From the IMG/VR virus record IMGVR_UViG_3300050821_007580, positions 1 through 47,373 of that record: a stretch of DNA of 47,373 nucleotides, one strand, 5' to 3'. This DNA comes from a virus. Every line of letters begins with the position of its first letter. The stretch's first letter is position 1. Shown piece by piece: positions 14,681 through 45,312 of the stretch. Under the pieces are notes generated by a model. That model was not told where the DNA came from. It was given only the letters and a program-made list of their open reading frames with translations, and made no database searches. The position numbers and the translations under genes are program-made.

Positions 14681-15775
14681 ATGGCCGATAAAACTGTGAT
14701 GGATGAAGTGAATGCCGCGCTAGGCGATGCCTTGAGCGAGGAAGATCCGCCCGCGCCCGTTGAAATTGAAGAGGAAATTCCTGATGCAACTGGTGATGCT
14801 GAGGCGGAAGGTGACGCTGAAGGAGATGAAGGCGAAGTATCCGCAGATGCAGAAGGCGCAGAGGAAACCGATGCAGAGGCGGAAGCTCGCGGCGCGGAGC
14901 GCGATCCCCTTACCGGCAAATTCAAAAAGAAAACCGAGGCAGAAAAGCCGGCCGAAGGCGAGAAGCCGAAAGCGGCAGAGCCTAAAAAGCCCGATCCGGT
15001 CAATGATCCGATCCCTAAGGATCTCAAGAAAGATACGCAAGAGCGCATTCGCACACTGATCGACACCACCAAGGCGGTGACCGCAGAGCGCGATGAAATC
15101 AAGCAAAACTTTGATTTCATGGTCAACGGCATCCAGCAAACCGGCGCCACGCCGCAGCAATATGGCGAAACACTATCGTGGCTCGCACTGTTCAACAGCC
15201 AGGACCCCAAACAACAGGAGAAGGCGCTTGAGCTTGTGGAAACCGTGGCCGAACGCCTTGCCACGCTACTTGGGAAGGAAAGAACGGTTGGTGATCCCTT
15301 GGGAGCGCATGTGGATCTCAAAGAGGCAGTGGCTAAGGGACAGATTACTGCCCAGTATGCTAAGGAAATAGCGCGCACCCGCAACGGTCAAGCATTCCGC
15401 TCTGAAGTCAATGCAACCGCAACGCAAGACCAGCAGCGTCAACAAGCGGCGGCGGAAGAGGAGCGACAAGGCCGCGCGGCATTGACTGAGCTGGAGGCAA
15501 CACTTCAGGAGACGGACCCCGACTACGCGCGCAAGAAAGCGATTCTGGTGCCCGCGCTGAAACCCATCATGGTCACAATCCCTTGGAGCCAGAAGAAAGA
15601 CAAATTCCTGGCGGCTTATAAAGCCGTGAAGCTGCCAAGTGTTACAGTCGCGAAACCGAACGGCGCTACGGCGAACCAACCGCTCCGTGCAGGGAAGCAA
15701 CCTGCTGGAGGGCAGACTAAACAGCCCTCCAGCATGTTGGAAGCGATCAGCGGCGCTTTGGGGAGCATGAAGTGA
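14681..15775 (+). CDS. Scaffolding protein
   Basis: A 364-residue, highly charged, helical protein. The first 90 residues are very acidic (repeats of Ala-Glu-Gly-Asp), the middle is Lys/Glu-rich with DPLTGKFKKK (about 75-85), and the C-terminal half is helical (QQRQQAAAEEERQGRAALTEL), ending in a basic tail, as in phage scaffolds that bind the capsid protein through a positive C-terminus. Position between portal and capsid genes supports this. Upstream GATAGGAAACCCC resembles the leader of the Cro-like gene. Confidence 0.8.
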   Translation: MADKTVMDEVNAALGDALSEEDPPAPVEIEEEIPDATGDAEAEGDAEGDEGEVSADAEGAEETDAEAEARGAERDPLTGKFKKKTEAEKPAEGEKPKAAEPKKPDPVNDPIPKDLKKDTQERIRTLIDTTKAVTAERDEIKQNFDFMVNGIQQTGATPQQYGETLSWLALFNSQDPKQQEKALELVETVAERLATLLGKERTVGDPLGAHVDLKEAVAKGQITAQYAKEIARTRNGQAFRSEVNATATQDQQRQQAAAEEERQGRAALTELEATLQETDPDYARKKAILVPALKPIMVTIPWSQKKDKFLAAYKAVKLPSVTVAKPNGATANQPLRAGKQPAGGQTKQPSSMLEAISGALGSMK

Positions 15776-16488
15776 GGGACTACTCCAAAGTTTTGCTGGC
15801 AACCCCCATCCGTGGCAACCAGACCGTCACGCTCTACACTGCGGGGGTGATCCAGGCAACCGGCTTACACGGCGGCTGGTTACCGTTGGCCGGCCAATCG
15901 GATATCTACGTCGCGCGTAACGTGCTTGCGAATGAATTTCTGAATCGCAAAGAGTTTGACACCTTAGTGTGCGTCGATAGCGATATCGGCTTCACACGCC
16001 AGGACCTTCAAAACTTACTGGACACCGAAGAGCCCTTTGTCAGCGGGCTCTACACCGACAAATGCCAGCCGCCGATGCCTTTTTGTCGGGACAACAACGG
16101 CATGAACGTGCCATTGGAGGATATTCCGAAGCAAGGACTTCTCAAAGCGCGCTTCGTGCCCGGCGGCTTCGTCAAGATCGAACGCGTGGTGCTGCAAACG
16201 TTGATCGACAAGCAGATGGTGGCTTCCTACGGCGGCGGTAAGTATCATCAATTCTTCTTCGGCCGTATTGTCATGGACAACCTGTTGTCGGAGGATTATT
16301 CGTTTTCCGATTTGGTGTGGAGCGCCGGGATTCAGCCGTGGATCAACTGCGGCATTCGCTTGAACCATGATGGGCGTACGCTGGACCCGCAACCGCCTCA
16401 ATTGAAGACCGATACGATCACGACGGAGGCGATATCGTTACCGCCCCCGGCCGCGCTAAACGGAGCGGGCGTGCATGCAGCAGCTTAG
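15772..16488 (+). CDS. Glycosyltransferase-like protein (GT-A fold)
   Basis: A 238-residue protein that resembles GT-A glycosyltransferases encoded by phages: an N-terminal LLATPIRG strand, the DxD-type metal/nucleotide-sugar motif in VCVDSDIGF (about 66-74), then PFVSGLYTDK and a C-terminal RLNHDGRT segment typical of the acceptor side. It starts with GTG in the scaffold stop (GTGA) and overlaps the next glycosyltransferase by 14 bases. The pair may modify a virion protein or a host surface sugar; the acceptor is not known. Confidence 0.78.
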   Translation: MRDYSKVLLATPIRGNQTVTLYTAGVIQATGLHGGWLPLAGQSDIYVARNVLANEFLNRKEFDTLVCVDSDIGFTRQDLQNLLDTEEPFVSGLYTDKCQPPMPFCRDNNGMNVPLEDIPKQGLLKARFVPGGFVKIERVVLQTLIDKQMVASYGGGKYHQFFFGRIVMDNLLSEDYSFSDLVWSAGIQPWINCGIRLNHDGRTLDPQPPQLKTDTITTEAISLPPPAALNGAGVHAAA

Positions 16489-17338
16489 CATATGCATTCC
16501 CACGTTCAACCGCGCGCCGTTCCTGAAATGGACCTTAGAGAAGACGGAAGCGGACTTTCCCGATGCGAAGCTGATTGTTTCGGACAATTCTTCGAAGGAT
16601 GACACCCCACACGTACCGTTCAAGGGCCGCTATATTCGGCAGCAAACCAATATAGGCGCTTTCCCCAACATGCGCGCTGCGCTCTTGGCTTCACACACCA
16701 AGTATGCGATGTATCTGGGGGATGATGACTACTTGCTGCCGGGTGAAGTGCAAAAAGGCATCGATTTTTTGGAAGCCAACCCCACGGTGCTCGCGTATTA
16801 CGCGCCGTGTCAACTCTACAACGAAGTGGAGCAGCGCTCGGAATGGGACGCGTTCTATCCGGCGGAAGATGAAACCTTCACGCGCGCGGATTTGCTTTGG
16901 AATTTCGTCATGCACAAGCATGTATGGCCGGAGCATGCGATCTACCGACGCGAACGTCTGGAAGAAATCATGCAGCCGCGCACTCAAGCCTATTGGTGCT
17001 TCGTCGATCTTGCTAACGCGGCGGTGCGCGGTCCGGTACACTTCGCGAAGACCCCGTATTACCGGAACTTGACGGGGCACCCCGTTGGCGGCCGGGCGAA
17101 GCTAGGGGATCAGCAGTGTCTGACGGATTTCGACTCGTATCGGACGGGCTTGGAGCTGCTAGCACACGATATATTCCAAAGCAATTTGAAGGATATCGAG
17201 CTGAAGAAGAGCATCAACGATATGATCCGGCAATTTATGTGGAGCCGGTACGAAGTTGCGGCTCGCATCTTGGGAGCGCAGAATCGCACCGTTGAATCGG
17301 AAGTCATGAAGAAGCGCATGGAGATTTCCAGTTACTGA
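16475..17338 (+). CDS. Family 2-like glycosyltransferase
   Basis: A 287-residue GT2-type enzyme. SICIPTFNRAPFLKWTLE (5-22) is the nucleotide-binding start of the GT-A fold, VSDNSSKDDT (35-44) follows, and LGDDDYLLPG (75-84) contains the DxD metal motif. The C-terminal half would bind the acceptor and is not recognisable. It would transfer a sugar from a nucleotide donor in the host cytoplasm. It overlaps the preceding glycosyltransferase and is followed by a phosphatase-like gene, forming a cassette between scaffold and capsid genes. Confidence 0.85.
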   Translation: MQQLSICIPTFNRAPFLKWTLEKTEADFPDAKLIVSDNSSKDDTPHVPFKGRYIRQQTNIGAFPNMRAALLASHTKYAMYLGDDDYLLPGEVQKGIDFLEANPTVLAYYAPCQLYNEVEQRSEWDAFYPAEDETFTRADLLWNFVMHKHVWPEHAIYRRERLEEIMQPRTQAYWCFVDLANAAVRGPVHFAKTPYYRNLTGHPVGGRAKLGDQQCLTDFDSYRTGLELLAHDIFQSNLKDIELKKSINDMIRQFMWSRYEVAARILGAQNRTVESEVMKKRMEISSY

Positions 17339-17363
17339 AGCTGCCGAAAACGCCAAGATCGAC

Positions 17364-18002
17364 ATGGATAGGGCACTTGAGGAAACTCAAGACGAAGCGC
17401 CGATCTATGTGATGCGTCATGGGCGCACGGCGTTGGACGCTCTGGACCGCTCGGACGGGTGGCTCGATTTCCCGCTGACGGATGACGGCCGGCGGGGGAT
17501 CATGCCGGCGCAGCAATTTTTGAAATCGATGCCCACGCCCATTGCGTGCATCTACACACCCTCCCTCAAGCGCACCACGGAAACGGCGGACATCATCAAA
17601 TCCGGCATGGGGAGCAAGCCCGCCAAGATCATCGTGAGCGATGAAGCGCGCACTTGGAATTTAGGGATCGAGCTGATCGGTAGTAAGAAGCAACCGGCAA
17701 AGCCGATCGTTAAATTTTATATGCGCCACCCAGACAAAACACCCAAGGACGGCGAATCGCTGAATGATTTTCGCAAGCGGTTTCTCACTTGGTTCAAAGA
17801 GCAAATAGCCGAACAGAAAGACGGCCCGATTTTGATGGTGGTATCAGGCAGCAATATCCGCGAGATTAGCCAGCTCTTGACCGGCAATCGCGATCTACTC
17901 GATTTGGATGAAGGCGGCTTGCTGAAACTGCAGCCCATCGGCAAGATGTGGCACGGTAGCGTCGTCATGGGCGGCAAAAACAACCCGGATGAGGAGTCAT
18001 AG
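17364..18002 (+). CDS. Histidine-phosphatase-like protein lacking the second histidine
   Basis: A 212-residue protein of the phosphoglycerate mutase/histidine phosphatase fold. It has the RHG motif (R18-H19-G20) with the phosphate-accepting histidine, and YTPSLKRTTETADI (64-77) matching the SxLxRAxQTA motif. The second catalytic histidine, normally in a VSHGG-like loop, is replaced: residues 158-166 read MVVSGSNIR. It may be inactive, use another residue, or bind phosphorylated ligands. It follows two glycosyltransferases, so a role in sugar-phosphate handling is possible but unproven. Start ATG preferred although the ribosome binding site is weak. Confidence 0.82.
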   Translation: MDRALEETQDEAPIYVMRHGRTALDALDRSDGWLDFPLTDDGRRGIMPAQQFLKSMPTPIACIYTPSLKRTTETADIIKSGMGSKPAKIIVSDEARTWNLGIELIGSKKQPAKPIVKFYMRHPDKTPKDGESLNDFRKRFLTWFKEQIAEQKDGPILMVVSGSNIREISQLLTGNRDLLDLDEGGLLKLQPIGKMWHGSVVMGGKNNPDEES

Positions 18003-18004
18003 CA

Positions 18005-18448
18005 ATGGCTGATTTTACGCCGAAGAAGGTATCGACCGAGAAAGGTAAGGCTACGGGATCGCTACCGTCAGGCAGTGATCCGGAACACCAAGAGCCGCCA
18101 ACGCTCTATTTGGGGCACCATCACCTGGCGAAGCTTGGCATGGATAAAATGCCGGCGGTCGGCTCCAAGATCAAGATTAGCGGGCTCGCGCATGTGGGCT
18201 CTACCAGCGAAAGTGATCGGGCGGCGGAACCCGGCGAGAAGGGGGGTGCTGGCAAACGACGCAGTATGACGTTGCATCTCCACAAAATGGAGATGGGCGC
18301 GGACGGGGCCGGGGATGCAAGTGACGAAAGTCAAAAAGAAGGCATGAAGTCGGAAATCGACAAAGCGCTGACCAAGCATGCCGGCAGCGAATCGAAGAAA
18401 GGGCAGAAGGAAGGCAAAGCCCCTGCAGTACGGGCCGGCGGAGATTGA
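18005..18448 (+). CDS. Capsid-staple-like or decoration protein
   Basis: A 147-residue protein. The core TLYLGHHHLAKLGMDKMPAV (about 33-52) followed by GSKIKISGLAHV and, after a charged loop, RRSMTLHLHKMEMG resembles the small beta-rich capsid staple proteins of tailed phages, which clasp neighbouring capsid subunits. The C-terminus (100-147) is a charged helix (EGMKSEIDKALTKHAGSESK) and low-complexity. The location just before the capsid region fits. The similarity is from memory of the pattern, so the call is moderate. Confidence 0.6.
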   Translation: MADFTPKKVSTEKGKATGSLPSGSDPEHQEPPTLYLGHHHLAKLGMDKMPAVGSKIKISGLAHVGSTSESDRAAEPGEKGGAGKRRSMTLHLHKMEMGADGAGDASDESQKEGMKSEIDKALTKHAGSESKKGQKEGKAPAVRAGGD

Positions 18449-18450
18449 CT

Positions 18451-19248
18451 ATGGATTTTCCCTTTACCGGCACGGTGAGCATTCCGCAATCCCCGCCCTT
18501 GGGCGCTGCATCGCTTGGCTATCGCACTTGCCAGTTCAATGTAACTCCGCAAGCGTCTGATATCACGCACGCGAATGATCCCTCCTTCAAGTTTTCGGAC
18601 GGCCCTTACTACGGTGCGCGGCCCAATTGGACCGATCCAGTGCTGGCTACCACGGTCAACGGTGCGCTCTCGCTTAATAACACCGGAACGGCGGCCGGGT
18701 ATATCGCATCGCAGATGCAGACTTCTATTGCTGGATCGCTCGGCTATCTGTCCGCGGCCAAGGGCTTTTACGTTAAGACCCGCTATGCCCTCTCCAATGC
18801 CGATCCAGACCATTGGGATGCTTTCTATTTGAATCCCATGGAGAAGGTCAACGGCGCCTTGAGCTATGGAGAGATTGACATTCAGGAAGGCGGATACAGC
18901 AAATCCGGAGGGATGTTCTCTACGATAATTCAATGGCTTGGGCCTTACGTCACCGGAGTTGGCTATGGCAAGGGGCTACAGCAAAGCATGTTTACGGCCC
19001 CCGCGATTGACCCGACGAAGCCGCACGACTACGGGGTGAGCTACAACCCCATTCGCAAACTGCTGATCTACGATTGTGATGACGTGCCCACGTTTACCGT
19101 GGACACGACACAAAAAGACCCCAATGGTAATGTGATCGATGACGGGATCCGGAACTACCATTACTATATGATTTTGTGCCCGCAGAGTCACGGTAAGAAC
19201 GTTCCATACTCCATGCTCATCAGTAACCTGCAGGCGTGGACACCCTAA
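18451..19248 (+). CDS. GH16-like beta-glucanase/lectin-fold protein
   Basis: A 265-residue protein with the hallmark of family 16 glycoside hydrolases: GEIDIQE, the E-x-D-x-x-E catalytic motif, with E141, D143 and E146. The surroundings also fit the concanavalin A-like jelly roll: FYVKTRYALS (strand before the active site), HWDAFYLNP, and HDYGVSYNPIRKLLIYDCDD near the C-terminus. No signal peptide. GH16 enzymes cleave beta-1,3/1,4-glucans or agar-like polymers. I chose ATG 18451 because GGAG lies seven bases upstream; a TTG six bases earlier is less likely. It sits directly ahead of the major capsid gene, so a virion-borne enzyme or capsid-attached lectin is suggested. Confidence 0.75.
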   Translation: MDFPFTGTVSIPQSPPLGAASLGYRTCQFNVTPQASDITHANDPSFKFSDGPYYGARPNWTDPVLATTVNGALSLNNTGTAAGYIASQMQTSIAGSLGYLSAAKGFYVKTRYALSNADPDHWDAFYLNPMEKVNGALSYGEIDIQEGGYSKSGGMFSTIIQWLGPYVTGVGYGKGLQQSMFTAPAIDPTKPHDYGVSYNPIRKLLIYDCDDVPTFTVDTTQKDPNGNVIDDGIRNYHYYMILCPQSHGKNVPYSMLISNLQAWTP

Positions 19249-19252
19249 CGAT

Positions 19253-19280
19253 TTGACATCCGATGGGCGGTTGGCATAGG
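19253..19280 (+). promoter_or_regulatory. Possible promoter ahead of the capsid gene
   Basis: TTGACA (19253-19258), a perfect -35 hexamer, lies in the 144-base noncoding gap before the capsid gene. CATAGG 16 bases later is a poor -10. The gap is unusual in an operon where genes normally overlap. The rest of the gap holds no visible gene. Confidence 0.35.
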
Positions 19281-19392
19281 CTTCCGCACTATCAGTGACT
19301 GTATGTCGTGATCGCGCCAGCTCGGCACCTGGCAAATTCTAGGCTCGTCACTCCTGGGAAGAACGCAATGTTTTTCCATTTCAGGAGTTACC

Positions 19393-20463
19393 ATGCCTTT
19401 TACCACAGAACAGCTTGCCTACGCGGGTACGGCCGCGATCAACTATTTCCTCCGGAACGATCCGATAGACAACGTTAATATCGCCCGCCCCCTCATCAAA
19501 AAGCTGATGGAGGAAAAGAAGCCCTACGTTGGCGGCCTTCAGTACGTAGTGGAACAGCTCCGCTACAGCAACGATTCGAATTTCCAGTCCTACTTCGGCG
19601 ACACTCAAGTCACCTACAACCGTAAGCGCACGCTGCAACAGGCGAAGTACACGTGGGGCAGCTTCCATGATGGCTTTGGGCTCAACGAAGATGAGCTGAC
19701 GCAAAACGGGATCGTGATGACGGACGATAAATCGTCCGTGCCGACCGAAGCGGAGAAGGTTCAGCTCACGAATCTTCTGCAAGAAAATTCTGAAACATTG
19801 AAGCTGGGTTTTCAAGAAAACTTCGACTACATGCTGCATCTGGATGGTACGCAGTCCGCGACCAACATCCCCGGCTTGGACCTTCTGGTTTCCACCACAC
19901 CGACCGTTTCGCAGGTGGTCGGCGGCCTAGATCAGTCGATCTATACGTGGTGGCAGAACACTGCCATCACCGGCATCTCGACAACCACAGCCGGCAACTT
20001 GGTCCAGCAGATGGAAATCGGCTGGCGTGATTGCACCCGCTATGGCGGGATGGCGCCGAACTACATCTTGGTTGGTGAACTTTTCTTGGATGCCTACCGA
20101 CTGGATGCCAAGAACACCATCAATCGCACGGTGTACATGAAGGATGACGCAGAGCCGACCAAGCTGGACGCATCGGTTGGCGAAGGCATACGCACCGGCA
20201 TGTACTTCAAGAACATCGAAATCATCTGGGACCCGGTAATGACGGTGCTTGATGGGCTCTACGCGCCGACCATCCCTTGGGAGAAGCGTTGCTACTTTCT
20301 GAACACGAAGTTCCTGAAGCTGCGCCCGATCCAAGGCCACTGGATGATTAACCGGACCCCGCCGCGGGTGTACGACCGCTATGTGCATTATTTTGCGCTG
20401 ACGGCCAAAGCCGCACTGACAACGGGCAAGCGCAACGCGCACGCCGTTCTCAGCATCGCGTAA
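19393..20463 (+). CDS. Major capsid protein
   Basis: A 356-residue protein of the HK97-fold major capsid kind. N-terminal arm (1-45), an E-loop-like segment with KRTLQQAKYTWGSFHDGFGL (about 78-97), a helical spine with ENFDYMLHLDG (138-148), and a C-terminal P/A-domain region with IIWDPVMTVLDGLYAPTIPW and a final KLRPIQGHW strand. AGGAG seven bases upstream of the ATG is a strong ribosome binding site, and a terminator follows two genes later, as expected for the most abundant virion protein. It assembles on the scaffold into the procapsid. Confidence 0.88.
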   Translation: MPFTTEQLAYAGTAAINYFLRNDPIDNVNIARPLIKKLMEEKKPYVGGLQYVVEQLRYSNDSNFQSYFGDTQVTYNRKRTLQQAKYTWGSFHDGFGLNEDELTQNGIVMTDDKSSVPTEAEKVQLTNLLQENSETLKLGFQENFDYMLHLDGTQSATNIPGLDLLVSTTPTVSQVVGGLDQSIYTWWQNTAITGISTTTAGNLVQQMEIGWRDCTRYGGMAPNYILVGELFLDAYRLDAKNTINRTVYMKDDAEPTKLDASVGEGIRTGMYFKNIEIIWDPVMTVLDGLYAPTIPWEKRCYFLNTKFLKLRPIQGHWMINRTPPRVYDRYVHYFALTAKAALTTGKRNAHAVLSIA

Positions 20464-21627: not shown

Positions 21628-22899
21628 ATGCCTGTAGTTATCGGTGGTCAAGGCGATGTCGTTGACCCCAGCGCATGGCAGGATGCCGCCGGCAACGTGC
21701 CGCCGAGAGAATTCAGCAACGTCCCTTACAACGTCAACTTTCCTTTGAATGGCGATGGCCGCTACTGGTTTCAGACCAACACCTTTGCGACCAATACGAG
21801 CGGGCCGATTACCTTCATCGGCAATCCGGCTTTCGCCTCTACCGGCAGCGTCAACCTGCAATGGAGTGTGGTCCAGGCAGCGAACGATGGCAGTACGCCC
21901 AAGCTTGCTTATCTGACAAGCGCCGGGGTTTGGACAACGGCAACGCTATCGAGCGCAGGCGCGCAACATGGCGGCATCCAGAACGGGCAGATTATTGTCC
22001 CTTTGAATACGCTGTCCACAGTCGCGCAGCTTCAGGTACAGATTTACTCCACAGGCGGCATCTCCAGCGCCTCCGCGTTGCCGTACCAGATCGCGGTTGC
22101 AATCACGCGCAACCAGAACGAAGGGCTGTCATGGGATAACCCGAACCCCTTCAATCCAGTCAACTACAACGCGGCGTGCATGGATAATGTGGTACCAACC
22201 GCTACCATGTCGTCGCTCTCGGCGCGCATCTTAGTGCGGCTGGGGTTTGCCAATCAGGCGACGAATCCACCGCCCGGCATGGCGTTATTGGTCCAGGATT
22301 TTTTGACGAGCGCTCAGACGTACCTATATAAGCGGTACCTCCAGCTACACACCAAGCGACTGTTTCGTTGGAAGGTCAATCCCGGTCAGCGCTTCTACTC
22401 GCTGAAAGACAACGATGAGGATGTGCTGTGCAATTTCACGATGGATCCGTTGAAGAGCATCGAATGGGCGGGGATTCAGGATACGCGCAATGTGTGGTAT
22501 CCGCTGATTCAAGGCATTCCGCCACAGCTCTATACGATGATTACCAAACCGTGGCGACCCGCGCGCTACGATATTCGGCAAGCGATCGAACTCTACCCGA
22601 TGCCAGATCAAACGTATTGGCTATGGATCAAGGGGCATTTTGGATTGACTTCGTTTATCAATCCCACGGACACCACAACCCTCGATAGCGAGTTGGTATT
22701 TTTGCATGCGTTGGCAAATGCCAAGGCGCACTACGGGCAACCGGATGCCAACAATATCGAAGCGCAAGCGAATGCCTATCGCGCGGAGCTGATTGCAGGC
22801 ACGCATCAAACCGCCCACTACTTGCCGGGGACGATCGCGGTACCGCCGGCTGTACGCCCGACGTTGATTCAATTCGATCCGGCGGGCGGCGGTGCATGA
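21628..22899 (+). CDS. Head-to-tail adaptor with N-terminal beta domain
   Basis: A 423-residue protein in two parts. Residues 1-185 are beta-rich (TGSVNLQWSVVQAANDGSTP), an extension not usual for an adaptor. Residues 195-400 look like a podovirus adaptor: SARILVRLGF, then a helix (MALLVQDFLTSAQTYLYKRY), RFYSLKDNDE, IEWAGIQDTR, and a C-terminal helix pair (ELVFLHALANAKAHYGQPDA). It would connect portal to nozzle. Its stop overlaps the nozzle start (ATGA). The ATG follows AGGGG. Confidence 0.75.
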   Translation: MPVVIGGQGDVVDPSAWQDAAGNVPPREFSNVPYNVNFPLNGDGRYWFQTNTFATNTSGPITFIGNPAFASTGSVNLQWSVVQAANDGSTPKLAYLTSAGVWTTATLSSAGAQHGGIQNGQIIVPLNTLSTVAQLQVQIYSTGGISSASALPYQIAVAITRNQNEGLSWDNPNPFNPVNYNAACMDNVVPTATMSSLSARILVRLGFANQATNPPPGMALLVQDFLTSAQTYLYKRYLQLHTKRLFRWKVNPGQRFYSLKDNDEDVLCNFTMDPLKSIEWAGIQDTRNVWYPLIQGIPPQLYTMITKPWRPARYDIRQAIELYPMPDQTYWLWIKGHFGLTSFINPTDTTTLDSELVFLHALANAKAHYGQPDANNIEAQANAYRAELIAGTHQTAHYLPGTIAVPPAVRPTLIQFDPAGGGA

Positions 22900-25800
22900 G
22901 GCCGTATCCGCTTACCGTTCTTAAAGGCGGCATCAATCGTCTTAAGGTGAAAGGCGGAGCAGCCGCCGACAGCCTCTACGACCTTCAGAACGGCTATATC
23001 ACCAACGCCGGATCGGTGACGCCTCGCGAAGGTACAATCCGCACCGCGCAGCTCGATAGCTCTACCGTAGGGCTTGCGGCGGCGAATGGCGTTTTCAATG
23101 TATTCTCCAGCCAGTTCTCGACATCGATGCCGGCTGGCTTCGTGCTCAATGTGCTTTCGGACCCCAACAACACGACAGCATCACCGGTCAAGATTTGGTT
23201 TGCCAAGCCCTTCATGGGTTTTGAGTATGTGGTAGCGCAATTCAACAACGGTGATGTAGTTCACTATTGGCTGCAAAATAGCGGCACGTGGACCAGCAGT
23301 ACCACCTATACCAGTGCCAGCATCATATTGCCGCCGACGCCCAACGGCATCGCCTATCAAGGGCTACGAGATTTCCCGCCGCAACCGTTATGGACGGCGG
23401 AGACCATTATCACTTCCGGCTCGTATGTAGAGCCAAACACGCCTACAGGCTTTGTTTATCAAGCGGTGGCGACAACCGGAACCCCGGTTCATACCGGAGC
23501 CGTGGAGCCAGTATGGCCCACGACTGCGGGCGGCATCGTGCAAGAGTTTGGTGACTTTGATCTATCCACAAGCGATGCAGGCACAACGCAAGCATCCAAC
23601 AGCCAGATATCAACGGCCTCGCCGCTCAGCTCCAGCATTACCGATCGTTATGGGGACTCGAATACGATCTCCAACTCCGGCGTGTTTTCTAATGCGACCG
23701 TTTCGACGCTCACATTGGCATCAACCAAGATTACCACTTGGAAAGGCGGCACCAATTACGCGCCGGGCGCCGTGGTCATTCCGACTTCAAATCAAGGCGC
23801 CTTCGTCAATGCGATCCCGAATGGTGACTTCGAGGGCGGTAGTGGAGCGGGCGGCTGGACCTTTACCGATCCCGGCGGGACGATTCAATGGGCGTACTCC
23901 AGCACGCTCCCCTATCAAGGCTCAGAGTGTATTTCGGTTCCCGGCGGTGCCGGCATGGGCGCGCAAGGTGCCTATGCCACAATGACGGGGCACGCCGCGG
24001 TAACGCCGGGGCAAAGCGTCACAGCTACCGCGTATCTGGACCCCAACAATTCCGGAGCCAATCTGACGCTATGGATTCAGCTCAATTGGTACAACTCTAG
24101 TGATGGCATTATTAGTTCGTCCGGTAATCAGCAAAATGAGCAAGAAGGGGGCGGCTATCGCTTGGCTTCGGTAACTGCGACCGCACCGCCGGGGGCGGCA
24201 TTCGCCCGCGTATCGATTGGCGCGGGCAGCGGTACAAGCGGACGCAATGCTGGATTCTGTGATTTGGTTTCGTGGAATTTGGCGACCCCCGCGCCTATCA
24301 CCAATTTTCTATTTGAAGCGGTGCAGCCGGCAGCAGGCAGTTCCGCGGCTACCGAACCAACATGGCCAACGGTGCTCGGCAATGAGGTGATCGATGGAGC
24401 GGTAACGTGGAAGGCGATCGGCACCTCCATCATCACCTGGCAAGCAATCCCCATCATGTATTCGGGGCTGACAGCGCCTACCTTTCCAACGGTTATCGGG
24501 AATGCAGTCCATGATTTTAGCACTTATTCCAATATCAACGGCTATGTGACGACGTTTACCAGTATGTCGTGGGAGGCGGTTGACCGGCATATATCCGATC
24601 CAAAAGACCCCAATAGTATAGCGGTCGCTATTGGTGCGTCGCACGTGTTTGCCGGTAGCAACGATATCGTGCCGTATTCTGCCGCGGTCAACCCTACCGA
24701 TTGGAGCAGCAGCAACAATGCAGGATACTTGCCGACCGGCTTGAACAACTACGGGGATAATCCGGTTACGGTGCTCGCGCTATATCGAGGTAACCTGATT
24801 GTGTTCAACGCGGGCGGCTACCAGATGTGGCAGATTGACCCCGATCCGCAGAACATGGCGTTTCTGGACGCGCAACCCGTAGGCTCCTTATGGCCGCGTG
24901 CCGCGCAATCGGTGTCAAACGATTTGATCTTCTTGACGGAGATTGGGGTGCGAAATTTAGGCACCATTGGCGCAACCGCCAATATGGCGATTGGCAATAC
25001 CGGTCAAGCGGTCGATCCTTTGATTCTGGCGCAGATTCAAGCAGCGACCTACGACCCCTTCTCAATTTATTATCCAGGGCGTGGGCAGTATTGGCTGATT
25101 TACGGGCCGCAAGTGTTTGTGCTCACCATCAACGGTCTATCCGGTAACAAATCGTGGTCGCGTTATATCTTCCCGCAAGTCATTACGGACGCCACGCTAC
25201 TGAACGGTTTCCTGTACCTTCGCACAGCAAATAATTTGGTGTGGCAGATCAACGGTGCCGCTTCAGGAGATGATTCTCTGTTCGTAGATTTGAACACGAT
25301 CCTGCTTTTGCACTTTGACGGAAATTTGCAAGACTCCTCGGTCAACAATATCGCCGCCACTGCGCACAACGGTGCGGTCATCTCCACAGTGTCGGAATTC
25401 GGTAGCGGATCGCTTGCTATCTTGCCGGGGCAAGCGACGTTCAACAGTTTCAGCCCATCCACGAATGTTTCAGTCACGACACCGATTACTCCGGGGGGTG
25501 TGGAGGACGTTACCTTCAATAATGCGGACTTCACGGTGGAGGGCTGGTTCAATATCAGTACCTTAGCCACGCAGCCGTTGGTGGTATTCGACTACGGGAA
25601 TGCAGCCTTTGCGCCTGGCAATCTTGGGTTCGTGCTCAATGTAAGCCCCACGATATTTCAAGTCATCAATGTCCCTAGCACATGGGGGGCTACCGGCTCA
25701 ACAATGATGTCCATATCGACCGGCGTGTGGCATCACTTTGCCATCGTGCGCGCGAGCGGCGTGGGGCACGCCTATCTGGACGGAGTATTGATCGGAACGC

Positions 25801-26348
25801 CACAGAATTGGTTTGGTGCAACCAACCCAGTGCAATTCAATGTGGGGTGCAGTCCGACAATATCGGGAACGTTCGGAACAGGTTGGGTAGATGAAGTGCG
25901 CATCAGCAATATCGCGCGCTACACGGCGAATTTTGTGCCGCCTACGGCGCCGTTTCCTAACAACGGCCCGACAGCGCTAGCGATAGCGACCACCGGGCTC
26001 ATTCAGTGGCCGTACCTCGATATGGGGACGTTGGGCCGCAACAAGATGATGGTGGGCGTGGATATCATTGGGGAAGGTAGCTGCACCATCCAGATAGGAT
26101 TCAACCAGTCGGATAAATCGACCTTTAATGACAATCCGGGGTTTGCTACATCAACGGGGGTTACGACGCCCTACTTCGTAGCGATCGATGACACCGTACC
26201 GGGGGAGCCGCTGGCGTTCCCCATCAATGCGCCTAGCTATTCTCCAATTTTGACCTTTACCAGCACGACAGCCAGCCTCAATACCTGGAGCTTGCAGGCG
26301 GTCAATATCTATGTGACGGACGCCAGCGGTGCGGGAGCCATGGGATGA
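22896..26348 (+). CDS. Tail nozzle-like protein with CBM-like and LamG-like insertions
   Basis: A 1150-residue protein, over twice the length of P22 gp10. The start (LTVLKGGINRLKVKGGAAAD) and the central block with VFAGSNDIVPYSAAVNPTDW and LYRGNLIVFNAGGYQMWQI fit the beta-propeller of packaged-DNA stabilisation/nozzle proteins. Three short EPxWPTxxG-type repeats occur. Residues about 309-463 (GDFEGGSGAGGWTF to a CDLVSW strand) resemble a jelly-roll carbohydrate-binding module. Residues about 797-1027 form a LamG/concanavalin A-like domain: LLLHFDGNLQDSS, FTVEGWFN, HHFAIVRASGVGHAYLDGV, DEVRISNIARYT. It would close the head-tail channel and may touch cell-surface glycans. Confidence 0.75.
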   Translation: MRPYPLTVLKGGINRLKVKGGAAADSLYDLQNGYITNAGSVTPREGTIRTAQLDSSTVGLAAANGVFNVFSSQFSTSMPAGFVLNVLSDPNNTTASPVKIWFAKPFMGFEYVVAQFNNGDVVHYWLQNSGTWTSSTTYTSASIILPPTPNGIAYQGLRDFPPQPLWTAETIITSGSYVEPNTPTGFVYQAVATTGTPVHTGAVEPVWPTTAGGIVQEFGDFDLSTSDAGTTQASNSQISTASPLSSSITDRYGDSNTISNSGVFSNATVSTLTLASTKITTWKGGTNYAPGAVVIPTSNQGAFVNAIPNGDFEGGSGAGGWTFTDPGGTIQWAYSSTLPYQGSECISVPGGAGMGAQGAYATMTGHAAVTPGQSVTATAYLDPNNSGANLTLWIQLNWYNSSDGIISSSGNQQNEQEGGGYRLASVTATAPPGAAFARVSIGAGSGTSGRNAGFCDLVSWNLATPAPITNFLFEAVQPAAGSSAATEPTWPTVLGNEVIDGAVTWKAIGTSIITWQAIPIMYSGLTAPTFPTVIGNAVHDFSTYSNINGYVTTFTSMSWEAVDRHISDPKDPNSIAVAIGASHVFAGSNDIVPYSAAVNPTDWSSSNNAGYLPTGLNNYGDNPVTVLALYRGNLIVFNAGGYQMWQIDPDPQNMAFLDAQPVGSLWPRAAQSVSNDLIFLTEIGVRNLGTIGATANMAIGNTGQAVDPLILAQIQAATYDPFSIYYPGRGQYWLIYGPQVFVLTINGLSGNKSWSRYIFPQVITDATLLNGFLYLRTANNLVWQINGAASGDDSLFVDLNTILLLHFDGNLQDSSVNNIAATAHNGAVISTVSEFGSGSLAILPGQATFNSFSPSTNVSVTTPITPGGVEDVTFNNADFTVEGWFNISTLATQPLVVFDYGNAAFAPGNLGFVLNVSPTIFQVINVPSTWGATGSTMMSISTGVWHHFAIVRASGVGHAYLDGVLIGTPQNWFGATNPVQFNVGCSPTISGTFGTGWVDEVRISNIARYTANFVPPTAPFPNNGPTALAIATTGLIQWPYLDMGTLGRNKMMVGVDIIGEGSCTIQIGFNQSDKSTFNDNPGFATSTGVTTPYFVAIDDTVPGEPLAFPINAPSYSPILTFTSTTASLNTWSLQAVNIYVTDASGAGAMG

Positions 26349-30099: not shown

Positions 30100-32162
30100 T
30101 GGCCTTCATCCCCGACGCACCTTCGAAGTTCGTACCGGATACGCCCCCGGATGCCGATCCGATTGGCACCGCCAATCGCGCCGCCAACGCTTCCGAACAC
30201 GGTCCTGTTCAAGATGTGATCGATATGGTGCGGGCGGCGCCCGCGGGGATCATCCCAGCGCTGAAAGGCGCGGTGAGCGGTTTGGCTGATCCGTATGGGC
30301 ATGTGTTGCAATTGGCCCAAACGATTAAGACAGCGCTTGCTAATCCTAGCGCCACACTGACATCGGTGGGATCGGCACTCAGCAGCGCGACACCGCAGCA
30401 AGTCGGCAAAAACGTCGTTGCGCCATTGGCCGTTGGCAGTGCGATCGGTGGCGGGGCGGGGCTGGCTGCGGATGCTGCCGAATCGACTTCCGCGGCAGCG
30501 GCCGAAGCGGCGACTCCCGCCGGTCAACTCGGATTGCGCTCTACCGCTCCGCGGCCGATCGCGGCGGGCGCGGCAGGACCAACAGCTGGCCCAACGCTAG
30601 ACATTCAAAATCAGAAGGTAGGGGCTAGGGTGCTTGGCGCTGATGCGGGAGTGCCGCACGATGTTCCCATCAATCACACCTCGCTGGAGGCGGCAGCGGC
30701 CAAACCAGGGCAGCTACTGGACCAAGCATCCGATCTTCTACCGCCAAGCCCCTTGAGCCCCAACGCGCAAGCGGCGGTGCAAGCGGCGCGCGGCCCTAAG
30801 ACGATTACGCCAGGGTCTCCGGATGTCGATAATTACACCAACGCCACGGAGGCGAAGCTCCTAGATCCCAACGCGCAGTTTTCAGGCACGGAGATTCGAG
30901 CTACCCGCAATTTGCTGAGCGGGGAAGCGGCAACCGCGCGCAACTCCGCCGACCCTGCGCAACGCGCTTTGGCCAAGTACAAGCAGAACATCGTCGGCGC
31001 CCTGGATCAGCACGTGGCTGACACCATGCCGGAGAATAGCGCCATCTCCCCGGAGATGATCGCGAACGCCCGCGAGACTCTCGCCAAAAACTACAACTTG
31101 CGCGATTTGATCGGCAAGGGTGGAGATATAGACCTGCAGGCGCTGGCCGCGGATCACCGGGCGAACCCCAATAAGTTCACTGGCAACACGCGCACCGTGG
31201 CGCAGTTCGCCAGCGATCACCCAGAAGTGACAGGCCCCATCTCCGACGCCCAGCGGATCGCGCCGCCCAGCTTGGTCGGGGATTTGAGCCATATCAACGT
31301 ACTAAATCCCCGCTCCTGGATACAGCCGTTGATCGGCTCCGCCGGACGCGCGGGACTCAAGGGTTCCGGCGCCTTGGATGCAGCGGCGCGCACTCCGGTA
31401 GCGGGATTGGCGGGAGAGTTCGAGCCCAAGCCGTTGACCGCCTTGTCTGCGCCCCCCGGACGGGCTTTTACCCCCAACCAACCAGATCTCGCCACAGGTG
31501 CTCCCCAACGGGATCTTTTTGGCACCGGAGCGAACAACTTCACGGCATCACCGCCAACGGGCGCTCCGCCTCCGGCCGCAGGGTCGCCAGGGCAAGTCTC
31601 GCTCGCGGACTTACTCTCGCATGGCGTTGAGCAGAGCCCGGCTCCAGGGCTCTCCAGCGGTCCTATGGGTGCTCCGGCGCCATCAGGGATTCCCTTCACG
31701 CCGAACTTAGAACACGCGGCGGGCGGCTTGTCGCTGGACGAATCCTTGAACGGCCCCTTCAAAGGCCAGCCGATGAGTATGGCGGACTTTGCCGGCGTCA
31801 AGAGTCAGGGGGTGCCTGAGGGCATCATGACGCGCACTCCGGCAAAACCCAAATTTCAAGCCGGGGATATCCTCAAACCGGATTTCGCCAACAACGCTTC
31901 CGGGGAATCGGCTGCGAGCTTGGAAGCACAGAGTCGCTTAGGGCAGGAGAAGGCGGCTGGCGTAAAACCGGTTATCTTCGGGGACTCTGGCGCAACCCCG
32001 TTACTGCATGATGTGACCGCAGTCGATCGCACTCCGCCGAAGGGCCATATCATTCTGGATGCGAGCACTGGCAAAGTCATCAATGGTGGCGGAATGAAGC
32101 CGAGTGCCGTGCAAGCGCTCGTCAACCGCTGGCATGCATCTCAGTTGGGGGAGGCGTTTTGA
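30099..32162 (+). CDS. Large internal virion protein
   Basis: A 687-residue protein with an Ala/Pro-rich chain, a hydrophobic Gly/Ala stretch (PLAVGSAIGGGAGLAADAAE, about 106-125) that could insert in a membrane, a helical middle (STAPRP to about 400) and a Pro/Gly-rich C-terminal half. The largest protein of the ejection group, as T7 gp16 is. I see no transglycosylase motif. ATG overlaps the preceding stop (TAATG). Role inferred from context. Confidence 0.65.
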   Translation: MAFIPDAPSKFVPDTPPDADPIGTANRAANASEHGPVQDVIDMVRAAPAGIIPALKGAVSGLADPYGHVLQLAQTIKTALANPSATLTSVGSALSSATPQQVGKNVVAPLAVGSAIGGGAGLAADAAESTSAAAAEAATPAGQLGLRSTAPRPIAAGAAGPTAGPTLDIQNQKVGARVLGADAGVPHDVPINHTSLEAAAAKPGQLLDQASDLLPPSPLSPNAQAAVQAARGPKTITPGSPDVDNYTNATEAKLLDPNAQFSGTEIRATRNLLSGEAATARNSADPAQRALAKYKQNIVGALDQHVADTMPENSAISPEMIANARETLAKNYNLRDLIGKGGDIDLQALAADHRANPNKFTGNTRTVAQFASDHPEVTGPISDAQRIAPPSLVGDLSHINVLNPRSWIQPLIGSAGRAGLKGSGALDAAARTPVAGLAGEFEPKPLTALSAPPGRAFTPNQPDLATGAPQRDLFGTGANNFTASPPTGAPPPAAGSPGQVSLADLLSHGVEQSPAPGLSSGPMGAPAPSGIPFTPNLEHAAGGLSLDESLNGPFKGQPMSMADFAGVKSQGVPEGIMTRTPAKPKFQAGDILKPDFANNASGESAASLEAQSRLGQEKAAGVKPVIFGDSGATPLLHDVTAVDRTPPKGHIILDASTGKVINGGGMKPSAVQALVNRWHASQLGEAF

Positions 32163-33985
32163 AGCGTCAGGTTCCCGTCATCGGCGGAGTGCGCAAAGTC
32201 ATCAAGGATGGCGGCAACCCTGCGTCTCCGGGTACGACTATTGCAGAACTTGGCTCTGATACCGTATCGCTGGCGACTCTCGCGGCGTTGATTACGCAGC
32301 TCCAGAGTCAGCAAGTCAATACTGGCGGCGGAAATATTGGCGATGGCACCGAAGCAACTTTAGTTGTAGGTCCGGGGCTCTCCGGCGGCGGCCCAATGCT
32401 TGGTGCGGTACCCCTTCGGTTGACGGCGCCAATCCCCGCGTTTATCTGGGATGACGGTGGCGGAGGGGATGGTGATCCGGGGCCGCCGGGCATGCCTGGG
32501 ATTCGCGGCGTTAACGGTGTTACTGGCGGTATAGGTCCTGCAGGGCCGGCGATCTTCATGGCGGGGGATAGCGGAGAGGATGGCGATTTAGGAGCACCGG
32601 GGGCACCAGGTGTTCCGGGGGCCCCCGGCACTCCTGGGATTGCCGGCCCTACGGGGCCGGCAGGGACCACCCTAGTCTATGTAAATACCACCATTCCCGC
32701 TGGTAACACTGTTGCCAATACGAGCATAGAAACCTTCTTTACGTCATCGTATACGGTACCGGCAAATTCGCTAGCAATTGGTACTGTACTTAGAGTTAGA
32801 TTCTTTGGTGTCTACAGTACGGGGGTTGTCGCCCCTTCTTTAACCTTGCGGGTATATTTTGGCTCAACAGTACTCATCACGTCAGGCACGCTGACAACAG
32901 TTGCCAACATCACTAACGATGGATGGTCTGCGGAAGGCTTATTCACTGTTCAGGGCATAGGATCTTCCGGCACGATAGAAGCGCAGGGGCTGTCGGAGTT
33001 CTCCACGGCATCTACGGTTGTGTTGTTCGTCAACATGGACAACGCGGCGCCGATTACAGCCGATACCACCATCAACGAAGCAGTTCGTGCTTCAGTCCAA
33101 TGGGGCGGGACGGTAAACGCTAGCGATACCATTACGCTTCGCGAGATGACGGTAGAAATAATGACGGTAGCGGGGATTCCTGTTAGCCCAATTTCAATCC
33201 CACCTTTTGTATTCTTTGGCGATGATGGTGAGGAGGGGAGTATCGGCCCTCCAGGACCCGCGGGGGCGCCTGGAGGCGGCAACGCGGGGGCAAATCCATT
33301 TAATGTATCGCCCGATACCCATTTAACAGGGGTACCGGCATTCATAGCAAATGATTATTTTGAAACCGCAGCACTTGATACCGCAGGGACACGATTTGCG
33401 GGGGCCGGCGCGTGGACTGTCTACAACGCTAGCAGTTCATCCATAACCCAATCGAAGGGTTCCGTTCATCTGACAACATCCATCAACGCCGGTCAAGATA
33501 TCACCATTGCTGCGCAGCCGATTACGACAAGCTCAGTAGCATGGCGGTTTCGTTTGCATTTAACCGCTGCATTTATGACGGTCGCTTCCAATAATGGCGG
33601 CCTATACGCCTACGAATCTTCAACGGGAAAAGTGTGTCAGTTTGGTGTTATCAACTTAAGCGGAACGCCTAATTTTTGGATTGCATATGCCACTTCGTTT
33701 ACCGCGGGCGGCGTACTTCAAACCAATACCGCGGCGTCTGGATTATTTCCGCTGGGAGTAGGGTATTCGTCTGCACCCGTATGGCTGGAGTTAGAACTAG
33801 CTGGCGGTACGCTGACGTATCGAGTGTCGTTGACCGGATTAGATGGTTCGTTTCTCCCGATTCAAGCAAATGCGCAAACGACCTTTTTTACTACGACTCC
33901 GAATAATATCGGGTTTGGTGGGTACGCAGCCAGCGGCTCAGCAGCTTCGCAGATCTTCTGCGATACGTTCACTCAAGAGGCATGA
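32159..33985 (+). CDS. Collagen-like tail fibre protein
   Basis: A 608-residue protein starting with TTG in the stop of the preceding gene (TTGA). A short N-terminal attachment region (MKRQVPVIGGVRKVIKDGG) is followed by a Gly-X-Y collagen-like segment at about 99-168 (GDPGPPGMPGIRG, GAPGAPGVPGAPGTPG), a beta domain (170-350), a second short collagen-like run (GPPGPAGAPGGG near 362), and a C-terminal lectin-like beta-sandwich (about 395-608). Collagen-like repeats trimerise phage fibres. Likely the receptor-binding fibre. Confidence 0.8.
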   Translation: MKRQVPVIGGVRKVIKDGGNPASPGTTIAELGSDTVSLATLAALITQLQSQQVNTGGGNIGDGTEATLVVGPGLSGGGPMLGAVPLRLTAPIPAFIWDDGGGGDGDPGPPGMPGIRGVNGVTGGIGPAGPAIFMAGDSGEDGDLGAPGAPGVPGAPGTPGIAGPTGPAGTTLVYVNTTIPAGNTVANTSIETFFTSSYTVPANSLAIGTVLRVRFFGVYSTGVVAPSLTLRVYFGSTVLITSGTLTTVANITNDGWSAEGLFTVQGIGSSGTIEAQGLSEFSTASTVVLFVNMDNAAPITADTTINEAVRASVQWGGTVNASDTITLREMTVEIMTVAGIPVSPISIPPFVFFGDDGEEGSIGPPGPAGAPGGGNAGANPFNVSPDTHLTGVPAFIANDYFETAALDTAGTRFAGAGAWTVYNASSSSITQSKGSVHLTTSINAGQDITIAAQPITTSSVAWRFRLHLTAAFMTVASNNGGLYAYESSTGKVCQFGVINLSGTPNFWIAYATSFTAGGVLQTNTAASGLFPLGVGYSSAPVWLELELAGGTLTYRVSLTGLDGSFLPIQANAQTTFFTTTPNNIGFGGYAASGSAASQIFCDTFTQEA

Positions 33986-42829: not shown

Positions 42830-43207
42830 TCAGTCTTTTCCCGAAGTAGAGTAAAACCCTCTATCGTAATATTGGAAAAATTCGTCTACCTGTTCAATGG
42901 TCCAGAGTACCAACACCCTAAAACCTAACGATTCGAGTAGCACATGATACTCTCTTTGCCAGGGTTTTAGAACGCCTTTACCAGCTTTCGTTTCGACGTA
43001 GATAATCAGTGCTCCAGGAAAACGACATTCACGGTCGGGAGCCCCACGCCGTCCGTTGTCGACCATCTTGGCGGCCCATCCGCCGCGCGCAGCGACGCCC
43101 AGCACCAAATGATCCTCTACTTTAGCCTCCGGCTTGCTCATACCGTAAACCTCACGCACAGAAGGGGGAGGAAATAGCTTGCTAACCGCTTCACTAAATG
43201 CGCTCAT
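42830..43207 (-). CDS. VRR-NUC domain nuclease
   Basis: A 125-residue single-domain VRR-NUC protein of the PD-(D/E)XK superfamily. Visible: E31 in KVEDHLV, GAPDRE with D58, the E-x-K core VETKAG (E72, K74), and Q84 in WQREYHVLLESLGFRVLVL. Stand-alone VRR-NUC proteins in phages cut branched or Holliday-junction DNA. It is coupled to the polymerase gene by an ATGA overlap, so it likely acts in replication or recombination. Confidence 0.9.
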   Translation of the reverse strand: MSAFSEAVSKLFPPPSVREVYGMSKPEAKVEDHLVLGVAARGGWAAKMVDNGRRGAPDRECRFPGALIIYVETKAGKGVLKPWQREYHVLLESLGFRVLVLWTIEQVDEFFQYYDRGFYSTSGKD

Positions 43208-45312
43208 TTATGCTTATACCTGTAGCTGGTGCTGCCTTTGGCGGCCATTGGCATGCCCTCTGCCCAAAGGCTTGACTCTACCAGTAAGCGGCTCAAGTGC
43301 TTGTCGTTATATCGATCTTCGTCAGGGGGTTCCGTAATCGCTTCATCGTGTACGCTCAAGACCGGATTGTAGCCCGCGCTATCAGCCGCAAGCAAGCCAT
43401 CCATCATAATATCCGCGCAACCGCCTTGGCAGACGTTCTCCGCGTCTTTGCCGGAGTAGGTGGAGATTCGGCCCCACTGTTTGGTGTAGGGGTTTACTCC
43501 GATAAAGGATCTTGTGGTAAACCAGCCATCTGTTCGCACGCGCGGAGCAGGGTAGTTAAGATATCGGCCGCTTGGCAGCTTGATACGTAACCAATTTCCA
43601 ACTCGATCAACGGTAATTCGTTCCCCGGCTCTAAACTGTTTGCCGGGGGATCGAATGGCGTTTTTGATTGCATTGTCCAAAGCCTCCCAGAATGCCACGA
43701 TCATCGGATGCGCGGCTCTCCACATGAGTACAAGGGACTGGCATACCACCCATACCCGCTCTTCCAATCCATAGGTGCGATGCCGCTTGATAGCCTTGAG
43801 CCATAGCCGCTGCGCCTCACGCTTAACGTCAAGCGGTATGGTGTTCCAGGCCGAATCGGCAAGTTTTTCGAGACGCAAGCCATATGTCTCTGCCATCGCG
43901 CAGAAGGCGCCCACACCGCCATAGTACTGGAGGGCAAGCTCCATGACTTTGCCGACTTGCCGGCGGTAATCGCCTTCGTCCGCGATGTCGTTGGGGTCGA
44001 TGCCGAATGGGCGTGCATATGCTACCTTGTAAAGATCCGGACCCTCTTTACGATCATACGCCGCATAAGCAGCAATCTTCCACTCTTCTCCGGCGATCCA
44101 GGCCATATATCGGCCTTCGATATTGGCCAAGTCCGCCGTCACCAGCCGCCGGCCTTCGCCCGCTACAATCAGCCCCCGCAAGCAGCTTGACGCCAGCCCC
44201 ATGATGTCATCGGGGTCCAGCAGCTCAATGCTGTCGCAATGGAAGAAGCGAATAGCGAGTGCTATTTCCTCCGGGGTATGTTTCGGTCGTGGAAGGTTCT
44301 GGGGTTGCAACGTGCGACCAGCCCAACGGCCAGTACGCATAGCACCGCAAAACACCAACAGATTAAAAAGACGCCCTCTAACATTTTGATTAAGCACACG
44401 CTGATACTTGGCGGTACTTGCCTTGCTAGCCTTCTGGCGGATTCGTAAGAGTTCCTTAATGTGTTCGGGCAATGATTCATCTTCTAGCCTCCGTTCTACA
44501 GTGTCAGCGGTTAAGTCCGGCAGCTCAACGCCGAAATCCGCCATATAAGCCAAGAGTCGATCGCGCTGTGTAGTCGCTTCCACGGCGCTGTCATCGCCCT
44601 CCAGGCCGCTCGCCTGAATCCTGGAGAGCTTGGCTGTGCGTGCTGCTAGACGGCTTTTGGCGCGCGTCGTAGCATCGACAGCAGATGCTGCCAGCTTCAG
44701 ATCCATGGCGACGCCACGGTGATTCATCCGGTAATCGAGTGCCCATATCGCCCACATGCGGGGGGTAGCGTTCCATTTCGGAATCTTGCGCCAAACGTAG
44801 CGCATGGCTTCCACGTCCCGGCCGCCATAGCGAAGGAACTGTGCCCATTCTTTGGGGTGCGTCTCAGGGGTGTTGTACGCGCCCTTTTTATTAGGCTTCC
44901 AGAAGACTTCGCCGATATCCTTGCCCTTGAGTTTGGCAAAGCGCTCCGGCACCTTGAAGATGGTACAGAGCTTGTCCAAACCTCCAGGAAGACCATGCAT
45001 TCGACTGAGCGCCGCTGTGCAGCGCCATTTAGCTTCGGGGATTTCTAGCGTCTTAGTGGCGTCGAGTACCGTGCGGTCAAATTCGGCTTGATGCGCCCAG
45101 ACTTCTTGGGCTCGCAGAATTGCCGTTTTGAGGAGCTTAAGTCTTTGCTCGCGGACCCATGCCGCCTTCTTGGACAGCATATCGATGATGACGATAGGGC
45201 CGTCATCGATCGCGTATTGGATCATCGTCATTTCGACTTGGGTTGCGTACTTGACGTTACCCTGTCGAATGGGCACGCGGCTCCGCGTTTCACTGTCCAG
45301 CCAGAGCCGCAT
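43204..45312 (-). CDS. Family A DNA polymerase with 3'-5' exonuclease
   Basis: A 702-residue PolA-type polymerase. Exonuclease: LDSE (5-8), VWAHQAEFDR (about 90-99) and RYGGRDVEAM (about 166). Polymerase: motif A ADLANIEGR, motif B RQVGKVMELALQYYGG with the nucleotide-binding Lys and YG, and motif C SVHDEA. Lacks a 5'-3' nuclease. This is the replicative enzyme, working with the primase-helicase, DUF2815 ssDNA-binding protein and the nucleases in the same operon. Confidence 0.93.
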   Translation of the reverse strand: MRLWLDSETRSRVPIRQGNVKYATQVEMTMIQYAIDDGPIVIIDMLSKKAAWVREQRLKLLKTAILRAQEVWAHQAEFDRTVLDATKTLEIPEAKWRCTAALSRMHGLPGGLDKLCTIFKVPERFAKLKGKDIGEVFWKPNKKGAYNTPETHPKEWAQFLRYGGRDVEAMRYVWRKIPKWNATPRMWAIWALDYRMNHRGVAMDLKLAASAVDATTRAKSRLAARTAKLSRIQASGLEGDDSAVEATTQRDRLLAYMADFGVELPDLTADTVERRLEDESLPEHIKELLRIRQKASKASTAKYQRVLNQNVRGRLFNLLVFCGAMRTGRWAGRTLQPQNLPRPKHTPEEIALAIRFFHCDSIELLDPDDIMGLASSCLRGLIVAGEGRRLVTADLANIEGRYMAWIAGEEWKIAAYAAYDRKEGPDLYKVAYARPFGIDPNDIADEGDYRRQVGKVMELALQYYGGVGAFCAMAETYGLRLEKLADSAWNTIPLDVKREAQRLWLKAIKRHRTYGLEERVWVVCQSLVLMWRAAHPMIVAFWEALDNAIKNAIRSPGKQFRAGERITVDRVGNWLRIKLPSGRYLNYPAPRVRTDGWFTTRSFIGVNPYTKQWGRISTYSGKDAENVCQGGCADIMMDGLLAADSAGYNPVLSVHDEAITEPPDEDRYNDKHLSRLLVESSLWAEGMPMAAKGSTSYRYKHK

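Follow-up and report, generated by a model that had tools for sequence, protein, structure and literature searches.

The window, a stretch of 47,373 nucleotides of a soil-type phage (IMG/VR record IMGVR_UViG_3300050821_007580), carries between a scaffold-like gene and the major capsid protein gene a run of genes ending in a genuine open reading frame for a protein of 265 residues and about 28.8 kDa, counted from ATG (Table 1). A TTG lies in frame at 18445, where it overlaps the stop codon of the upstream Gp10-like gene, and the ATG is preferred as the start given the GGAG ribosome-binding-like site; it stands 2 bases past that stop, and translation is likely coupled to that of the upstream gene. 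No promoter or terminator scored above chance in 17900-19450, and there were no Rfam or tRNA matches. Simple hydropathy analysis finds no signal peptide in the 265-residue protein, whose first 12 residues contain neither K nor R and which has no hydrophobic core there. The preliminary description had placed GEIDIQE in a gene without a signal peptide between a staple-like gene and the capsid gene, and the reading frame, the motif position, the neighbours and the hydropathy all bear this out. The gene at the left edge of the interval is presumptively a scaffold gene, and the 238-residue cargo protein is GT-A-like as judged by inspection of its sequence.

Table 1. Features at and around the GH16-like gene (positions in the window)
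Feature	Coordinates	Strand	Remarks
Scaffold-like gene, left edge of variable interval	14681..15775	+	between portal and major capsid protein genes; conserved in relatives
Other cargo: GT-A-like 238 aa protein, GT2 glycosyltransferase (PF00535), histidine phosphatase (PF00300)	15772..18002	+	
Gp10-like gene, ORF family F0	18005..18448	+	weak PF21628 match: E 0.063 here, 1.1e-6 in relative L054
GGAG, ribosome-binding-like site	18440..18443	+	sequence
GH16-like protein	18451..19248	+	265 aa; no signal peptide; no fused tail- or capsid-binding domain recognised
WDAFY, residues 122-126	18814..18828	+	counterpart of GH16 WPAFW strand (alignment)
GEIDIQE, predicted catalytic strand	18868..18888	+	residues 140-146; alignment with GH16
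Major capsid protein, phrog_9953	19393..20463	+	E 1.4e-33

Elsewhere in the window, 22896-26348 encodes a 1150-residue protein with a LamG domain (PF13385, residues 870-1008, E 1.2e-13), giving the phage another concanavalin A-like fold; 32159-33985 encodes a fibre-like protein of 608 residues in which collagen repeats (PF01391) are accompanied by a long C-terminal part; and 43204-45312, on the minus strand, has a weak match to family A DNA polymerases (PF00476, E 7.7e-6, below the curated cut-off).

Given that GEIDIQE is encoded exactly in 28 stretches of IMG/VR, none of them GH16 and most belonging to one phage tail protein family, the motif alone does not establish membership of GH16. Searches with curated models were silent: Pfam, including PF00722, gave no match to the protein at E <= 1, PF00722 found nothing in the phage's own genome at E <= 10, and neither PHROGs nor NCBIfam returned anything. 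The protein is accordingly described here as GH16-like and is not filed as a member of PF00722, which misses it. Likewise, there was no match by tblastn against 50,697 phage records, in a GTDB pattern scan with the whole protein as query, in a scan with residues 102-183, or in a viral scan with a canonical GH16 protein (L097). Against plasmids, tblastn returned six records at E 1-5, of which one, from Rhizobium and annotated as GH16 (L093, E 5), is colinear with the phage protein over residues 67-235. A match on a Shinella plasmid (H7) was discarded as chance, since its reading frame differs from that of the plasmid gene, and one alignment (A2) was set aside as too divergent for searching.

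ExoK is a GH16 enzyme, and a profile of the ExoK type was built from 79 loci, the GTDB relatives of the Rhizobium protein. With it the phage protein scored 18.5 bits (E 1.9e-4 in a set of 3358 sequences), the next-best ORF reaching 7.5 bits; the best of 1000 shuffled sequences scored 4.8 bits and the best of 2000 shuffles that kept the motif 7.1 bits, so that none of the latter matched the phage protein. HHalign gave a probability of 83%. This strong score is partly selected, the seed having been chosen through the plasmid matches of the phage protein itself, and for that reason a second profile was built independently of the phage protein, with PF00722 as the sole means of finding its GH16 domains. 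Its score of 10.4 bits (single-test E 1.8e-5) was equalled by nine of the 2000 motif-keeping shuffles, and masking GEIDIQE abolished the signal; unselected support for GH16 beyond the motif is therefore modest. In two alignments GEIDIQE falls on the E-x-D-x-x-E of the GH16 rows, an anchor retained in the MAFFT variants shown, and W122, E141, D143 and E146 occupy the GH16 WxAFW and E-x-D-x-x-E positions. The predicted roles are nucleophile for E141 and acid/base for E146, with D143 between them, and the acidic residues lie on one predicted beta-strand (139-147), as is characteristic of GH16.

AlphaFold on the single sequence gave an unusable model (pLDDT 33), and with 26 GH16 rows, chosen so that MAFFT held five anchor motifs in register, a model of pLDDT 65.5 and pTM 0.73 that those rows guided. 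The best PDB matches of the guided model are GH16 structures (Foldseek E 6e-11; Z up to 18.6 over about 207 residues), among them the laminarinases and endo-O-glycanases 6t2p, 2hyk, 3atg and 4crq, at Z 17-18.6 over about 205 residues with only about 14-16% identity. Because the GH16 rows steer the fold, the model shows compatibility with GH16, and so with the concanavalin A-like jelly roll named in the preliminary description, and does not establish the fold independently. The further claim of that description, a GH16-like protein with the full E-x-D-x-x-E triad, draws support from profile, alignment and guided model, while PF00722 misses the protein and the unselected profile adds modestly.

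Among the closest known proteins are the ExoK-type GH16 enzymes of Rhizobiaceae and their relatives (e.g., Rhizobium sp. SL42 WP_237371590.1, L093), with which the phage protein is colinear from about residue 67 to its end, sharing the aligned WxAF, E-x-D-x-x-E, H-x-Y-G-V and final M-x-(V/I) strands. It differs from them in its low identity (about 23-25%), in lacking the conserved QQYGYFEMRA residues, and in a longer insert ahead of the last two strands. The GH16 laminarinase of Sinorhizobium phage phiM9 (AKE44749.1) is similarly a separate gene of a phage, but it has 429 residues, belongs to a T4-like phage and shows no tblastn similarity to the protein described here. Curtobacterium phage minor tail proteins also carry a GH16 domain, although in AddiRose gp10 it lies within a tail protein of 914 residues, whereas the window protein stands alone.

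Whether these resemblances could mislead deserves consideration. An unrelated fold, in which the GEIDIQE match and a weak profile score coincided by accident, would accord with the unrelated carriers of the motif in IMG/VR, with the silence of Pfam and with an unselected GH16 profile that has no signal outside the motif; this is nonetheless improbable in view of the colinear alignment across the whole domain, the failure of any motif-keeping shuffle to reach the ExoK-type score, and the strong model match, guided by GH16 rows though it was. Alternatively, the protein might be a non-catalytic pseudoenzyme whose concanavalin A-like sandwich serves solely for glycan binding. It is very divergent, at about 16-25% identity to GH16 rows, and a pseudo-glucanase of the same fold (Rv0315, 4wzf) is among the Foldseek matches. 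Pseudoenzymes, however, tend to lose their catalytic acids, and all three are retained here at the right spacing, which leaves a purely sugar-binding role unlikely. The protein is thus very probably GH16-like, and a GH16-like glycanase is the best call; that it is an active one is somewhat less likely.

The setting of the gene was surveyed in 57 loci (the window and 56 relatives), each with scaffold-like and capsid genes. The scaffold-to-capsid interval measures between 478 and 4572 bp. Mechanical calling sorted its ORFs into 32 families, of which 19 are singletons, the GH16-like gene among them. The Gp10-like family F0 occurs in 41 of the 57 loci, and the glycosyltransferase-like families F1 and F2 in 31 and 28, nearly always without the GH16-like gene. 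In relatives the slot just before the capsid gene is filled by endonuclease VII-type, GIY-YIG, methyltransferase, glycosyltransferase or weakly MptE-like genes, or by unknowns. The endonuclease VII-type and GIY-YIG genes recur there (L004 5319-5849, L018 5235-5864, L016, L017, L023, L028 and L053), which suggests homing-type insertion at the site. Two further slot proteins, L060 4453-5640 (395 residues) and L003 5059-5853 (264 residues), have no Pfam match and are possibly beta-rich, by eye only. In the cultured distant relatives Microcystis phage Mae-Yong1326-1, Rhizobium phage RHph_N65 (whose capsid gene starts at base 20 of a circular record) and Myxococcus phage Mx8, one or two genes separate portal and capsid. 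The pre-capsid interval is a hypervariable cargo site of this phage group, and for that reason a position beside the capsid gene lends no support to a role in the head.

The distribution of the gene points the same way. A search of the other 49 capsid-relative records, in which capsid protein identity reaches 98%, did not turn up the gene. Its only relative found (L001) is cut by a contig end; the last 47 residues are 91% identical, and the phage in question has an HI1409-family portal, a different gene order and no capsid gene adjoining the relative. The gene thus appears to occur in two phage types, with its mobility resting on that one partial relative, and it shows the marks of an auxiliary gene of the moron type: viral flanks, absence from close kin and presence in an unrelated phage. 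Its absence from kin suggests that it is dispensable for virion assembly. Between the window gene and the relative, 29 of 36 base differences fall at third positions, and since 27 codon changes are synonymous and four alter an amino acid, the protein is under strong purifying selection as measured against this single partial relative. As to the host, matches to the capsid protein in alphaproteobacterial genomes were all distant (at best 27% identity), and 297 Acidobacteriota gave none.

The preliminary description had read the position of the gene as a sign of a head-borne glycanase or capsid-attached lectin, which would bind or cut host matrix polysaccharide from the virion. The late-operon place directly before the capsid gene fits such a role, and a virion protein would need no signal peptide. 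Comparison with relatives does not support the reading, however. A slot that elsewhere holds endonucleases, methyltransferases and glycosyltransferases need not be a structural address; a capsid decoration would be co-inherited with the capsid protein, whereas this gene is missing from the capsid-relative records searched, even where the capsid proteins are nearly identical, and has its relative in a phage whose portal is unrelated, away from a capsid gene; and the cultured distant relatives have little between portal and capsid at all. A head-borne role of either kind is accordingly improbable, and a catalytically active GH16-type glycanase on the head very improbable, although, if true, the capsid itself would be a polysaccharide-cutting surface. 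A search of the open-access literature found no head-attached GH16. Nor does the gene resemble a tail-associated depolymerase, which would be part of a tail protein or fused to one: it is a stand-alone ORF with no recognised attachment domain. Alternatively, the protein might work in the cytoplasm alongside the interval's pair of glycosyltransferase-like genes, processing or transglycosylating glycans, for example those of the virion or the cell surface: GT2, GT-A-like and phosphatase genes occupy its immediate upstream neighbourhood, and the retaining enzymes of GH16 include some transglycosylases. This, too, is decidedly doubtful, for families F1 and F2 evidently do not need the GH16-like gene, in whose company they are so seldom found, and no glycosyltransferase-like gene was recognised near the relative.

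The explanation with somewhat better than an even chance of being right is that horizontal transfer brought in an accessory gene, whose product is a cytoplasmic GH16-like glycanase released at lysis to cut polysaccharide. On this account, an accessory (moron or auxiliary) gene in the variable cargo interval that separates the scaffold-like gene from the capsid gene would encode a stand-alone, divergent, presumably active retaining endo-beta-glycanase; expressed from the late operon and lacking a secretion signal, the protein would accumulate in the cytoplasm and probably be set free at lysis. The freed enzyme may then cut beta-linked polysaccharide around the burst cell, whether host exopolysaccharide, capsule or biofilm glucan, and the clearance might help progeny to spread. 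There is precedent for the components of such a scheme: GH16 genes are reported in surveys of soil viruses (PMC6460857, PMC10127799), a soil-virus chitosanase has been demonstrated to be active (PMC9485262), and the Sinorhizobium glycanases ExoK and ExsH cleave the exopolysaccharide succinoglycan (PMC4916376). The last of these, by analogy, offers a plausible kind of substrate and nothing certain about substrate or host in the present case.

The kind of gene is ordinary; its sequence is divergent. It very probably adds to the polysaccharide-acting genes of environmental phages a GH16-like enzyme overlooked by standard family models. More broadly, the interval before the capsid gene in this phage group is a cargo hotspot, and a capsid-adjacent position should therefore not be taken as a sign of a structural role.
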